From positions 1 to 37,165 of the forward strand of contig PFGT01000120.1 of NCBI GenBank assembly GCA_002782005.1: DNA of 37,165 nucleotides, read 5' to 3'. Made by a program: the position numbers and the translations under genes. Source of the stretch: Hydrogenophilales bacterium CG12_big_fil_rev_8_21_14_0_65_61_21. Lineage in GTDB: Bacteria > Pseudomonadota > Gammaproteobacteria > Burkholderiales > Thiobacillaceae. Shown here piece by piece: positions 12,717 through 17,111 of the stretch; positions within the stretch are counted from its first letter, which is position 1, and each line of letters starts with the position of its first letter. The notes under the pieces are model-generated. The model worked only from the letters and a program-made list of their open reading frames with translations, did not search any database and was not told where the DNA came from.

Positions 12717-13487
12717 ATGATCCATGCCACCGCCATAGTCCACCCGGGAGCGCGCATCGGCGCCCGGGTCGAGATCGGCCCCTATGCCATCGTCGGCGAG
12801 CAGGTCGAGATCGGCGACGATTGCCGGATCGGTCCCCATGCCGTCATCACCGGCCATACCCGAATCGGTCGCGGCAATCGCATCTTCCAGTTCGTTTCCC
12901 TGGGCGAACAACCGCAGGACAAGAAGTACGCCGGCGAGCCCACCCGTCTGGAGATCGGCGACAACAACACCATCCGCGAATTCTGCACCTTCAACACCGG
13001 CACGGCGCAGGACGTCGGCGTGACCCGAATCGGCAATAACAACTGGATCATGGCCTATGTCCACATCGCCCACGACTGCCAGGTCGGCGATCAAACCGTT
13101 TTTGCCAATAATGCCACCCTGGCCGGGCATGTGCGGGTCGGCGACTACGCCATCCTGGGCGGCTTCACCGGCGTGCATCAGTTCTGCCGGATCGGCGCCC
13201 ACACGATGATCGGCATCGCCTCGGTCATCACCCAGGATGTGCCGCCTTTTCTCACCGTCGCCGGTAACCCGAGCGCGCCGCGCGGCATCAATAGCGAAGG
13301 ACTCAAGCGGCGCGGTTACAGCCCCGAGTCGCTGGCCGCCCTGAAGCGGGCCTACAAGACCCTGTACAAGTCGGGTCTGGGTCTGAAAGCCGCTCACAGC
13401 GCTATCGCCGCCGAAGCGGAAACCGTTCGGGAACTTCAGCCCCTGGCCGATTTCCTGGCCACGCCAGGACGCGGGATTATTCGGTGA
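12717..13487 (+). CDS. lpxA: UDP-N-acetylglucosamine acyltransferase LpxA
   Basis: First lipid A enzyme: transfers a 3-hydroxyacyl chain from ACP to the 3-OH of UDP-GlcNAc. The 256 residues are normal. It is a left-handed beta-helix of hexapeptide repeats (about 1-185) plus a helical C-terminal domain. With a constant offset of 6 from E. coli numbering, the catalytic His125 is His119 here (VHIAHDCQVG), and the acyl-chain ruler Gly173 is Ile167 (AHTMIGIASV). The bulky residue suggests a shorter hydroxyacyl donor than the C14 of E. coli, by analogy with the ruler Met in Pseudomonas LpxA. The GNPSAPRGINSEGLKRRG segment is typical of the family. Confidence 0.97.
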   Translation: MIHATAIVHPGARIGARVEIGPYAIVGEQVEIGDDCRIGPHAVITGHTRIGRGNRIFQFVSLGEQPQDKKYAGEPTRLEIGDNNTIREFCTFNTGTAQDVGVTRIGNNNWIMAYVHIAHDCQVGDQTVFANNATLAGHVRVGDYAILGGFTGVHQFCRIGAHTMIGIASVITQDVPPFLTVAGNPSAPRGINSEGLKRRGYSPESLAALKRAYKTLYKSGLGLKAAHSAIAAEAETVRELQPLADFLATPGRGIIR

Positions 13488-13497
13488 GTGAAAACCA

Positions 13498-13568
13498 GTG
13501 AGGGGTGAGGAGTTATGAGTGGTGCGGCGGAGCGGGTAGACTCACCCTCCTCACTCCTCACTCCTCAC
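13498..13568. repeat. GTGAGGAG-type inverted repeat spanning the lpxB start
   Basis: The arm at 13498-13513 (GTGAGGGGTGAGGAGT) is the reverse complement of 13553-13568 (ACTCCTCACTCCTCAC) with one mismatch in 16. The 3' side holds three tandem CTCCTCA-type units. The 39-base loop contains the only in-frame upstream ATG of lpxB (13515). The 5' arm also supplies the purine-rich ribosome-binding sequence. The paired mRNA could mask translation initiation. Confidence 0.7.
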
Positions 13569-14699
13569 CAAATAGGCATGGTGGCCGGCGAGGCATCGGG
13601 CGACCTGCTCGGCGGCCTGCTGATTCGGGCCCTGCGCGAGGCCGGACTGGCAGCGAATTGCTATGGCATCGCCGGCCCTGGGATGCAGGCCCAGGGCGCC
13701 CGCTCCCTGTTTGCCATGGAAACGCTCTCGGTGCGGGGCTATGTCGAGGCGCTGGCCAATCTGCGCCGGATATTGGCCATACGTCGGCGCCTTAAGACGC
13801 GTTTTCTGAACGACCGGCCAAAACTATTCATCGGCATCGATGCACCGGACTTCAACCTTGCCCTGGAGACCCGGCTGAAGCGAGCCGGCATCGCCACCGT
13901 CCATTTCATCAGCCCTTCCATCTGGGCCTGGCGACGCAAGCGTATCGCCAAGATTCGCCGGGCCGTGTCCCACATGTTGTTGATCTTTCCGTTTGAGGAG
14001 GCCATTTACCGCGAGGCTGGCATACCCGCCACCTATGTCGGCCACCCCCTTGCCTATGCCCTGCCGGAGAGGCCGGATCGCCGGCAGGCACGGGAAAAGC
14101 TCGGACTTGACCTCGACGGTGTCTATTTCGCCTTGCTACCAGGTAGTCGGCAAAGCGAATTGCGGCACCTGGCCGGTCTCTACCTGGAAACCGCCAAACG
14201 TCTATATGCCGAGCGACCCGACATTCGATTTCTGGCACCCATGGCGACACGGGAAACCCGCGACCTGTTCGAACAGGCTATCGAAGCCGCCGACGCTTAT
14301 GACCTGCCCATTCGCATCGTCTTCGGCCACGCCCACGACGTACTGCAAGCCGCCGACGCCGCCTTGGTGGCGTCGGGTACCGCAACGCTAGAAGCGGCGC
14401 TGCTGAACTGCCCTCACATCATCACCTACAAGGTGCCCTGGCTGACCTACCAGATCATGAAGCGCCAGGCCTACCTACCCTGGGTCGGCCTGCCCAATAT
14501 TCTGGCCGGCCGCGCCGTGGTGCCGGAGTTCATTCAGGAGCAGGCCAACCCCGAAACACTGACGGCGGCGCTACTCGGCCTATTGACCAATACGCCGTTG
14601 CGCGAAGCCATGTTCGACGCCTTTGCCGGCATTCGCTACAGCCTGCGCCGGGACACCCCCCGGCTGATCGCCCAGGCCTTGGCGCCGTTCCTGAGATGA
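13515..14699 (+). CDS. lpxB: Lipid-A-disaccharide synthase LpxB
   Basis: GT19 glycosyltransferase that joins UDP-2,3-diacylglucosamine and lipid X to make the lipid A disaccharide at the inner membrane. From ATG 13515 it has 394 residues. The family sequence begins only at about residue 20 ([16 protein letters not shown]), followed by [14 protein letters not shown] near 109-122, [42 protein letters not shown] and [12 protein letters not shown]. The first 18 residues ([18 protein letters not shown]) are encoded by the repeat that spans the start and have no family counterpart. An in-frame TGA at 13506 blocks any earlier start; the only later ATG (13578) would delete part of the first strand. 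It ends in an ATGA overlap with rnhB. Confidence 0.95.
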
Positions 14700-16190: not shown

Positions 16191-17111
16191 ATGGCCGACG
16201 ACACCCAACGCCCAATCATCATCAAGCGCATCAAGAAGAGCGGCAGCGCGGCCCATGGCGGGGCCTGGAAGATTGCTTATGCCGACTTCGTGACGGCGAT
16301 GATGGCCTTCTTCCTGCTTATGTGGCTGCTCGGTTCCACCACCAAGGCACAGATGGAAGGCATCGCCGAATACTTCAAAACCCCACTCAAGGTCGCGCTC
16401 ACGGGCGGCTCGGGCGCTGGCGACGCCACCAGCATCATCAAAGGCGGTGGCACCGATCTGACCCGCAAGACTGGCCAGGTGATGAAGAGCGAGGACGCAA
16501 AGAAAAAAACGGTTATCAGTCTGGACAAATCAAAGTCGGAGAAGGAAGAAAAGGCCCGGCTCCAGGACATGAAAGCGAAGCTGGATAAGCTGATCGAGCA
16601 GAATGCCAAGCTCAAGCCATACAAGAATCAACTCAAGATTGACATGACCGACGAAGGACTACGCATCCAGATCGTCGATGACAAGAACCGGCCGATGTTC
16701 GATTCCGGCGGCGCGGCAATGAAGCCCTACACTCGTGAAATCTTGCAAGCCATCGGCAAGACGCTGAACGAGCTGCCCAACCGTATCAGCCTGTCCGGCC
16801 ACACCGACGCCGTGCGCTACACCACCGGCGAACGCGGCTACAGCAACTGGGAATTATCCGCCGACCGCGCCAACGCATCGCGTCGCGAACTAGTCTCAGG
16901 TGGTCTGGAAGACGGCAAGATCATGCGGGTCGTCGGTCTGGGTTCCGCTGTGCCATTCAACAAGGACAACGTCAACGACCCGGTCAACCGCCGCATGTCC
17001 ATCATCGTGATGAACAGGAAGGCGGAAGAGGCCATCACCCGCGAGGCCGGAAACCAGATCGAAGGCAGCACCGCCAATCAAATCGGGACGCAGCTTGAAC
17101 GACGCAAATAA
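16191..17111 (+). CDS. motB: Flagellar motor stator protein MotB
   Basis: Stator partner of MotA that anchors the complex to peptidoglycan. It has 306 residues. The single transmembrane helix contains the proton-carrying Asp32 in KIAYADFVTAMMAFFLLMWL, the same number as in E. coli. A plug/linker region with many Lys (about 95-150) precedes the OmpA-like peptidoglycan-binding domain (about 155-270), with LSGHTDAVRY, ELSADRANASRREL and RRMSIIVM. It follows motA by 21 bases. Its last 17 bases overlap the TTG start of the methyltransferase gene. Confidence 0.97.
   Translation: MADDTQRPIIIKRIKKSGSAAHGGAWKIAYADFVTAMMAFFLLMWLLGSTTKAQMEGIAEYFKTPLKVALTGGSGAGDATSIIKGGGTDLTRKTGQVMKSEDAKKKTVISLDKSKSEKEEKARLQDMKAKLDKLIEQNAKLKPYKNQLKIDMTDEGLRIQIVDDKNRPMFDSGGAAMKPYTREILQAIGKTLNELPNRISLSGHTDAVRYTTGERGYSNWELSADRANASRRELVSGGLEDGKIMRVVGLGSAVPFNKDNVNDPVNRRMSIIVMNRKAEEAITREAGNQIEGSTANQIGTQLERRK

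Follow-up and report, generated by a model that had tools for sequence, protein, structure and literature searches.

Introduction

The intervening sequence (IVS) in the 23S rRNA of Coxiella burnetii is a 428-nt element that carries terminal inverted repeats and an S23p ORF, with tandem heptamers just 5' of the ORF. The heptamer copy number varies among strains, and the IVS has been called selfish (PMC4990558, partial text). S23p resembles the Avd protein of diversity-generating retroelements in structure (PMC10053308, partial text), and we find a resemblance in sequence as well (PHROG 3206 match, E 2.9e-7).

Heptameric repeats have also been described between protein genes. The GGGAATC repeats of Xanthomonas are 7-bp units that are mostly intergenic, often lie between the same genes while varying in length and sequence, can form G-quadruplexes and generally show no link with mobile elements; facing arrays were counted in 70 and 75 cases in two genomes (PMC4692102, partial text). 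The TAACTGA heptamers of Beggiatoaceae are found near start codons and reach into the ends of ORFs. They contain stops in all frames in one direction and are open in the other, are arranged as direct repeats (169 sets and one indirect set in the genome studied) and have been proposed to be protein-binding sites (PMC4679880, partial text). The main text of the first paper makes no mention of S23, XCC0516 or four-helix, and that of the second none of S23, four helix or intervening sequence. Finally, REPs are 20-50 nt sequences that carry a leading GTAG and are partnered by TnpA-REP (PMC8266576, partial text).

Here we analyze a repeat between lpxA and lpxB in a 37,165-nucleotide stretch of DNA, called the window throughout. 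Like the TAACTGA repeats, its arrays lie near a start codon with stops in one direction and an open frame in the other, but they face one another, whereas TAACTGA repeats are direct (PMC4679880, partial text). Its unit, GTGAGGA, differs from the GGGAATC of Xanthomonas (PMC4692102, partial text), and the 5' arm contains a single run of GGGG. The hairpins of this class share with REPs and BIMEs a small intergenic palindromic form and a high copy number. They differ in being longer and built of tandem 7-mers, and the window stem has no GTAG at its 5' edge (PMC8266576, partial text). IVSs sit in 23S rRNA and are excised by RNase III, whereas the window copy is found between protein genes and has no ORF (PMC4990558, partial text).

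The window element has the tandem 7-bp unit and the position between genes and at gene edges of a heptameric simple-sequence repeat, as well as the stem-forming terminal inverted repeats with tandem heptamers in the ends that are characteristic of S23p/IVS elements. It has no S23p ORF between the arms, and we do not class it as an IVS because it is located between lpxA and lpxB, outside 23S rRNA.

Results

Facing heptamer arrays surround the lpxB start codon

The window belongs to contig C97 of a genome (G000) of 2.27 Mb in 126 contigs. Two facing arrays of GTGAGGA surround the predicted lpxB start codon (Table 1).

Table 1. Features of the lpxA-lpxB junction in window coordinates.
Feature	Position	Strand	Basis and remarks
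lpxA, upstream gene	12717..13487	+	ORF list; NF003657 and TIGR01852 lipid_A_lpxA; stop TGA 13485-13487
5' (sense) heptamer arm, GTGAGGGGTGAGGAGT	13498..13513	+	Sequence, inverted repeat; contains TGA 13506-13508 in the lpxB frame
SD-like GAGGAG within 5' arm	13507..13512	+	2 nt 5' of the ATG (short spacing); fully paired in predicted fold
lpxB start ATG 13515-13517 and loop	13515..13546	+	Codons 1 to about 10; no other in-frame start lies between TGA and core
3' (antisense) heptamer arm	13547..13568	-	CTCCTCA x3.1 on + strand (TRF, sequence); encodes about residues 11-18 (PSSLLTPH)
lpxB, lipid-A-disaccharide synthase, 394 aa	13515..14699	+	PF02684 from residue 21, TIGR00215 from residue 17
Alternative ATG	13578..13580	+	Immediately 5' of VAGE; a start here would lose core QIG

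An earlier note on this DNA had described complementary arms that enclose the start ATG, and both the sequence and an inverted-repeat search bear this out. The sense arm is identical at 15 of 16 positions to the reverse complement of 13553-13568, GTGAGGAGTGAGGAGT, and the search returned arms at 13498-13519/13547-13568 (86%) and 13497-13512/13547-13562 (94%). The units of the antisense array match at 100% (TRF), and the period-7 identity of the junction array (14/14) was reached by 0 of 300 shuffles. The minimum-energy pairing uses 13547-13562, which is one heptamer inward of 13553-13568. The loop of 33-39 nt is too small for an S23p ORF. The stem starts 10 nt past the lpxA stop, and 27 nt separate that stop from the lpxB ATG.

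RNA folding of 13470-13620 gave -71.8 kcal/mol (z -3.63) and none of 200 shuffles was equally stable, in keeping with the start-codon hairpin that the note had postulated. The z value depends on the cut, being -2.43 with 15-nt flanks and -3.31 for the bare junction (1/300 shuffles). From -15 to +3, the mean unpaired probability is 0.17 for lpxB versus 0.40-0.53 for lpxA and the presumptive fabZ, skp and motA of the window. An intrinsic terminator or a known Rfam RNA was considered and dismissed. No T run follows the stem (13569 onward is CAAATAGGC), and eight Rfam matches with E values up to 1 within 13300-13800 include none that reaches the gathering cut-off.

The in-frame TGA of the sense arm bars an earlier lpxB start, as the note had argued. 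The only in-frame ATG, GTG or TTG between this TGA and the LpxB core is ATG 13515, followed by ATG 13578 and GTG 13581. It was also right that the family sequence starts past the repeat (Table 1). The further claim that the repeat supplies the ribosome-binding site and the first 18 codons holds in part: the SD-like sequence, start codon and extension all come from the element, but residues 1-10 are loop and only residues 11-18 or so are repeat units.

The repeat could instead be an untranslated leader if lpxB truly starts at ATG 13578. The family profile begins just before this codon, codon usage in a simple gene caller also selected it, and genome G005 has an ATG at the same position, as part of 8 among 53 genomes (the window's included) with a start codon directly before VAGE. 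We nevertheless regard this start as very improbable. The remaining 45 genomes have no start codon there and hence require an upstream start, compact junctions start 5-7 residues before VAGE, and no SD precedes ATG 13578, where the longest SD match is 3 nt.

Arrays recur at lpxA-lpxB, but neither unit nor hairpin is conserved

LpxB was found in 111 of 117 genomes of the family, presumably Thiobacillaceae. We cut the lpxA-lpxB junction from 55 of these 111 genomes, and 53 junctions were readable (L186 and L189 were excluded). These and the other genome comparisons were mostly made on draft genomes, with gene calls at the junctions from our own script. The best LpxB match to a named record among the 80 matches listed is to a Parasulfuritortus MAG (L061, 84% identity), and G000 and G006 are sisters in an LpxB tree of 37 rows built by a quick method. 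Two MAG records titled Bordetella parapertussis (L085, L092) have LpxB proteins 53% and 50% identical to the window's, which is the Methylophilaceae range in the match list, and their labels look doubtful.

Junctions in genera g5-g7 are 17-30 nt long in 10 of 13 genomes and 181, 181 and 197 nt in the other three. Among the other 40 genomes, 39 have junctions of 42-127 nt and one has 220 nt. A separate insert of 181-220 nt is seen in L200 and L202 (G101 and G072 of genus g6, near-identical to each other) and in L188 (G050 of genus g3, partly alike by eye). Its fold is very stable in g6 (z -5.6 and -4.7) and not in g3 (z -1.0).

When only in-frame starts 2 or more residues upstream of VAGE are counted, the closest one in each of the 53 junctions is 3-30 residues away from it; the distance is 22 for the window and 5-7 for the ten compact g5-g7 junctions. 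The N-terminal extension is thus not conserved, which favors the reading given in the earlier note. The idea that relatives would simply lack the repeat is not supported, since heptamer-like arrays of other sequence lie at lpxA-lpxB in G002-G006, the five members of the genus with an lpxB match. In G002-G005 these are GTGACNN sense arrays without a comparable antisense array, and the weakest, that of G002, was equalled by 8 of 300 shuffles. In 12 of the 44 junctions long enough for a test (G000, G003-G006, G013, G016, G019, G042, G046, G060 and G068), no more than 3 of 300 shuffles equal the period-7 array, and the units differ (e.g., GTGACNN and CTCGCGA). Arrays therefore recur at this junction, but the unit, the hairpin and the extension are not conserved.

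These data bear on whether the stem is a selected cis-regulator that tunes lpxB translation or stability relative to lpxA, in the manner of a REP-like intercistronic stem or of one cut by RNase III. The stable fold and the buried SD are in line with such a role, and a hairpin is kept at ilvC-psd in five genus members despite sequence turnover (see below), which resembles selection for a stem. However, a strong lpxA-lpxB stem is confined to the window and G013; in G002 it is weak (z -2.1), and in G003-G006 none is seen. With this distribution, the stem is no conserved regulator of lpxB. The 17-30 nt junctions of 10 of the 13 g5-g7 genomes manage without a stem, and similar stems precede unrelated genes. 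We consider selected regulation unlikely. In its stricter form, as a conserved regulator of lpxB, it was dismissed: fold z is -2 or lower in 5 of 44 junctions (G000, G013, G055, G101 and G072), and only two of the five form heptamer hairpins.

Heptamer-armed hairpins form a genome-wide class

The repeat is not peculiar to lpxB: the window copy is one of many heptamer-armed hairpins that lie mostly between genes. The note's call to look for further copies was answered differently at different stringency. The exact 16-mer occurs once, as does its reversed control, and TGAGGRGTGAGGRG with up to 2 mismatches shows little excess (55 versus 43 in the control). The looser pattern GTGANNN x3, with up to 1 mismatch, has 44 matches in the window's own genome versus 12 for the reversed control. 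Several heptamer types exist side by side in this genome.

An inverted pattern, GTGANNNGTGA-N15..45-TCACNNNTCAC, was found in 58 of 117 family genomes, with up to 51 counts per genome (overlapping matches included), and in 62 of 300 genomes of the order. The reversed pattern, used as the control, gave 0 in every genome of both sets. To place arrays relative to genes in the window's own genome, we used a simple codon-usage gene caller, scored arrays that reach the next ORF start as junctional, and sampled 27 stretches picked for array-like matches, 2 of which have no array by the script rule. Of 35 arrays, 27 lie at junctions of co-directional genes and 6 within genes; of the remaining two, one is between convergent genes and the other at a contig end. 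Twenty elements from four other genomes are distributed similarly, with 14 between co-directional and 2 between divergent genes and 4 that the crude caller placed within genes. Typically, a stop codon is followed by the sense arm, then by the loop and the antisense arm, and finally by the start.

Arm similarity (n = 25) averages 0.77 within an element, 0.72 versus other elements of the same genome and 0.34 versus other genomes. In permutations, the difference within genomes gave p 0.066, and the difference across genomes was reached by 0 of 5000. The heptamer type thus appears to be mainly a property of the genome and only partly one of the element, judging from these arms. Purely local homogenization of the arms is unsupported at this p value and sample size. 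A separate observation concerns the GTGAAAN hairpins of genus g3 (L211 and L216; G044 and G051), which contain inner palindromes such as GCGGCTGCGCCGC and so may have a nested structure or include REP-like units.

Filled and empty sites and captured gene starts

Between ilvC and psd, a hairpin is present in all five genus members with a match, including G000, where 76-92 nt separate the stop from the ATG; G005 has no match. The units are GTGAAAN in G000, GTGAGGA in G006, GTGAAGG in G004, GGGAAAN in G003 and GTGACNN-like in G002. In the same order, hairpin z is -8.7, -2.9, -4.9, -4.1 and -7.5, and the period-7 score is reached by 0, 2, 0, 2 and 15 of 300 shuffles. The G002 hairpin mixes 7- and 8-nt units. 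Because sister species carry different heptamers at one junction, a single ancestral heptamer was dismissed.

Other junctions are filled in some genomes and empty in others. The accB-accC spacer is 90-118 nt in G000, G004 and G006 versus 15-18 nt in G002, G003 and G005, where each empty spacer has GGAGG before the start. The hairpin is clear in G004 (z -6.0), moderate in G006 (z -2.4) and weak in G000 (z -1.58; period-7 reached by 58/300). At nuoI-nuoJ, the sites of G000 and G006 are filled, with spacers of 94 and 129 nt and z values of -3.9 and -1.98, respectively (in G006, period-7 82/300, with facing GTGAGGA-like ends by eye), and G002-G005 are empty with 9-27 nt. The identities of AccC and Psd are backed by family models; nuoI, nuoJ, accB and ilvC are presumptive names given from their sequences. 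Comparison of empty and filled sites side by side by eye revealed no clear target-site duplication of the kind expected for a MITE. The filled and empty sites, together with an S23p-bearing version (see below), lend support to the note's description of the repeat as mobile, although movement itself is only inferred.

Arrays of this class also encode the starts of other genes. In the window's own genome, antisense heptamers encode the N-termini of RuvC, MVFSSPLTPHPSL (SSPLTPHPSL; family from residue 15; L247, G000:C35 near 59849-59886), and MurD, MRPSLLPPHSSLQ (RPSLLPPHSSL; family from residue 17; L251, G000:C92 near 16734-16774). Arrays are also found at the starts of RsmI, YbeY and FolP (L254, L252 and L258), of which FolP has later starts. 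The antisense array that precedes ruvC adjoins an IS4-type transposase gene in this genome, and yebC was not found near ruvC as far as the contig end (L247, L324). RuvC of G007 and G014 has array-encoded N-termini like that of the window's genome. Nine other genomes with a ruvC match have no arrays at ruvC, and G005 has no ruvC match.

Much of this could in principle arise by plain simple-sequence growth, in which heptamer arrays in spacers grow by slippage and one arm is copied from the other by template switching across the spacer, with neither a mobile element nor a protein involved. Polymerase slippage has been raised as a source of heptamers (quoted in PMC4692102, partial text). The persistence of the hairpin at one junction where sister species have different heptamers fits this explanation, as does the coexistence of several types in one genome. 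Against it, heptamer type is mostly genome-wide rather than local.

Many S23p genes lie between facing heptamer arrays

In G007 and G014, which represent two genera outside the window's, the yebC-ruvC junction contains an ORF between facing GTGAGG arrays; from stop to stop, it has 119 codons in G007 and 122 in G014. Both products are PF05635 23S_rRNA_IVP proteins (E 5e-35 and 2e-32), and in each a stretch of 55 residues also matches TIGR02436. The genes are at L318 1136-1492 (G007) and L316 2048-2413 (G014), and each could start at an in-frame GTG that belongs to its last sense heptamer. The distance from the yebC stop to the ruvC core is 427 nt in G007 and 420 nt in G014 versus 9-32 nt in 8 of 9 other genomes (8 measurable). 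An ORF-less hairpin of G007 (L225) has the same unit, GTGAGG, as the arrays that flank S23p in that genome. The two S23p copies are like the Coxiella IVS in their size of about 430 nt and in carrying an S23p ORF with heptamers, here in facing arrays; they differ in sitting between yebC and ruvC instead of in 23S rRNA (PMC4990558, partial text). The yebC-ruvC junctions of G007 and G014 have room for the S23p ORF only, which sets them apart from Avd of diversity-generating retroelements. No S23p gene was found in 89 loci of the window's own genome, many of which overlap.

A tblastn search returned S23p relatives on 32 plasmid records, all below 60% identity and mostly cyanobacterial, and on 4 viral contigs. 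We analyzed 22 of the 32 plasmid loci; H3 and H18 were omitted because they nearly duplicate H2 and H17, and H12 and H26-H32 because their matches are split, short or weak. Flanks were scored as facing heptamers when one flank reached a period-7 score of 12 or more and the two matched exactly, in facing orientation, over 10 nt or more. By this rule, 16 of 28 S23p genes (plasmids, viral contigs, G007 and G014) are flanked by facing heptamers versus 2 of 129 control ORFs from the same stretches (Fisher 1.3e-12), a figure to be read with the relatedness of several S23p records in mind, such that the cases are not all independent. Requiring an 11-nt match changed the counts to 14 versus 0, and a score of 11 with a 9-nt match to 18 versus 2. 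The G014 gene passes the main rule. The other 12 genes miss it, including that of G007, which passes only the laxest rule with a longest exact facing match of 9 nt. Four S23p genes (L334, L339, L342 and L347) have a best period of 8 nt on both flanks, and the long heptamer arrays of L330 are direct rather than facing (AGCTAAA before and AGCCAAA after the gene).

Slippage does not predict this association, seen in plasmids of cyanobacteria and in contigs of viruses, and it does not predict that S23p is inserted at yebC-ruvC together with both arrays. We rate growth by slippage as a possible but doubtful origin for the window repeat.

Discussion

The evidence tips slightly toward 13498-13568 (71 bp) being an ORF-less copy of an S23p-type selfish element with facing heptamer-array ends. 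The complete form would carry the gene for S23p, the 23S rRNA intervening-sequence protein, an Avd-like four-helix bundle, and the window copy may descend from an S23p copy. The weakness of some filled sites (accB-accC in G000 and nuoI-nuoJ in G006) and the mixed units at ilvC-psd in G002 speak against this origin. So do the failure to find S23p in the 89 loci of the window's own genome, the 12 S23p genes that miss the flank rule, the lack of a clear target-site duplication, the only partial link of heptamer type to the element, and the sense arrays of G002-G005 that have no comparable antisense partner at lpxA-lpxB. Among the literature matches listed, with subscription journals mostly outside the scope, we found no report that connects S23p to facing heptamer arrays, the Coxiella IVS excepted, and searches of literature text for the repeat strings returned only unrelated matches.

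An S23p-type element could be tolerated between the lpxA stop and the lpxB core. The sense arm has stops in all frames because 7 is not a multiple of 3, and the antisense arm, being open in frame, could be read through. The older lpxB start was presumably lost here, so that the arm would now supply the SD-like sequence and the element would supply ATG 13515 and 18 extra residues. With the SD held in the predicted mRNA stem, ribosomes finishing lpxA 27 nt before the ATG would loosen the stem, and under this model lpxB translation probably depends on ribosomes arriving from lpxA. The hairpin may thereby affect lpxB expression. Stalling at a stem very near a stop is reportedly known for REPs and would be a further possible effect, on lpxA.

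The larger S23p-carrying look-alikes suggest an origin for the heptamer repeats of several bacteria. Xanthomonas has an S23p protein of known structure (2gsc, XCC0516). In a tentative extension, which we hold with considerable reserve, the intergenic heptamers of Xanthomonas, Nostoc, Beggiatoaceae and the window's order would be the ends and ORF-less remnants of a single S23p-run selfish class. The species-specific 7-mer would be an address renewed by copying, and stops, ribosome-binding sites and starts would have been lent repeatedly to essential operons. If right, this joins heptamer repeats of unknown origin with S23p proteins of unknown function, and the two questions become testable together. 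Junction repeats would also be a simple means of rewriting the starts of essential genes (lpxB and murD; also ruvC), a point of importance for the annotation of start sites.

S23p genes were also seen among cas/cmr genes in 3 of the 22 plasmid loci, as expected of insertions at operon junctions. Two plasmids have S23p between cas6 and cas4 (type I-D), and a third has it between cas10 and a cmr3-family gene (L328, L330 and L339 together). A figure of CRISPR-linked proteins includes the 23S rRNA IVP family (PMC10910872, partial text), and S23p copies between cas/cmr genes may explain its presence there.
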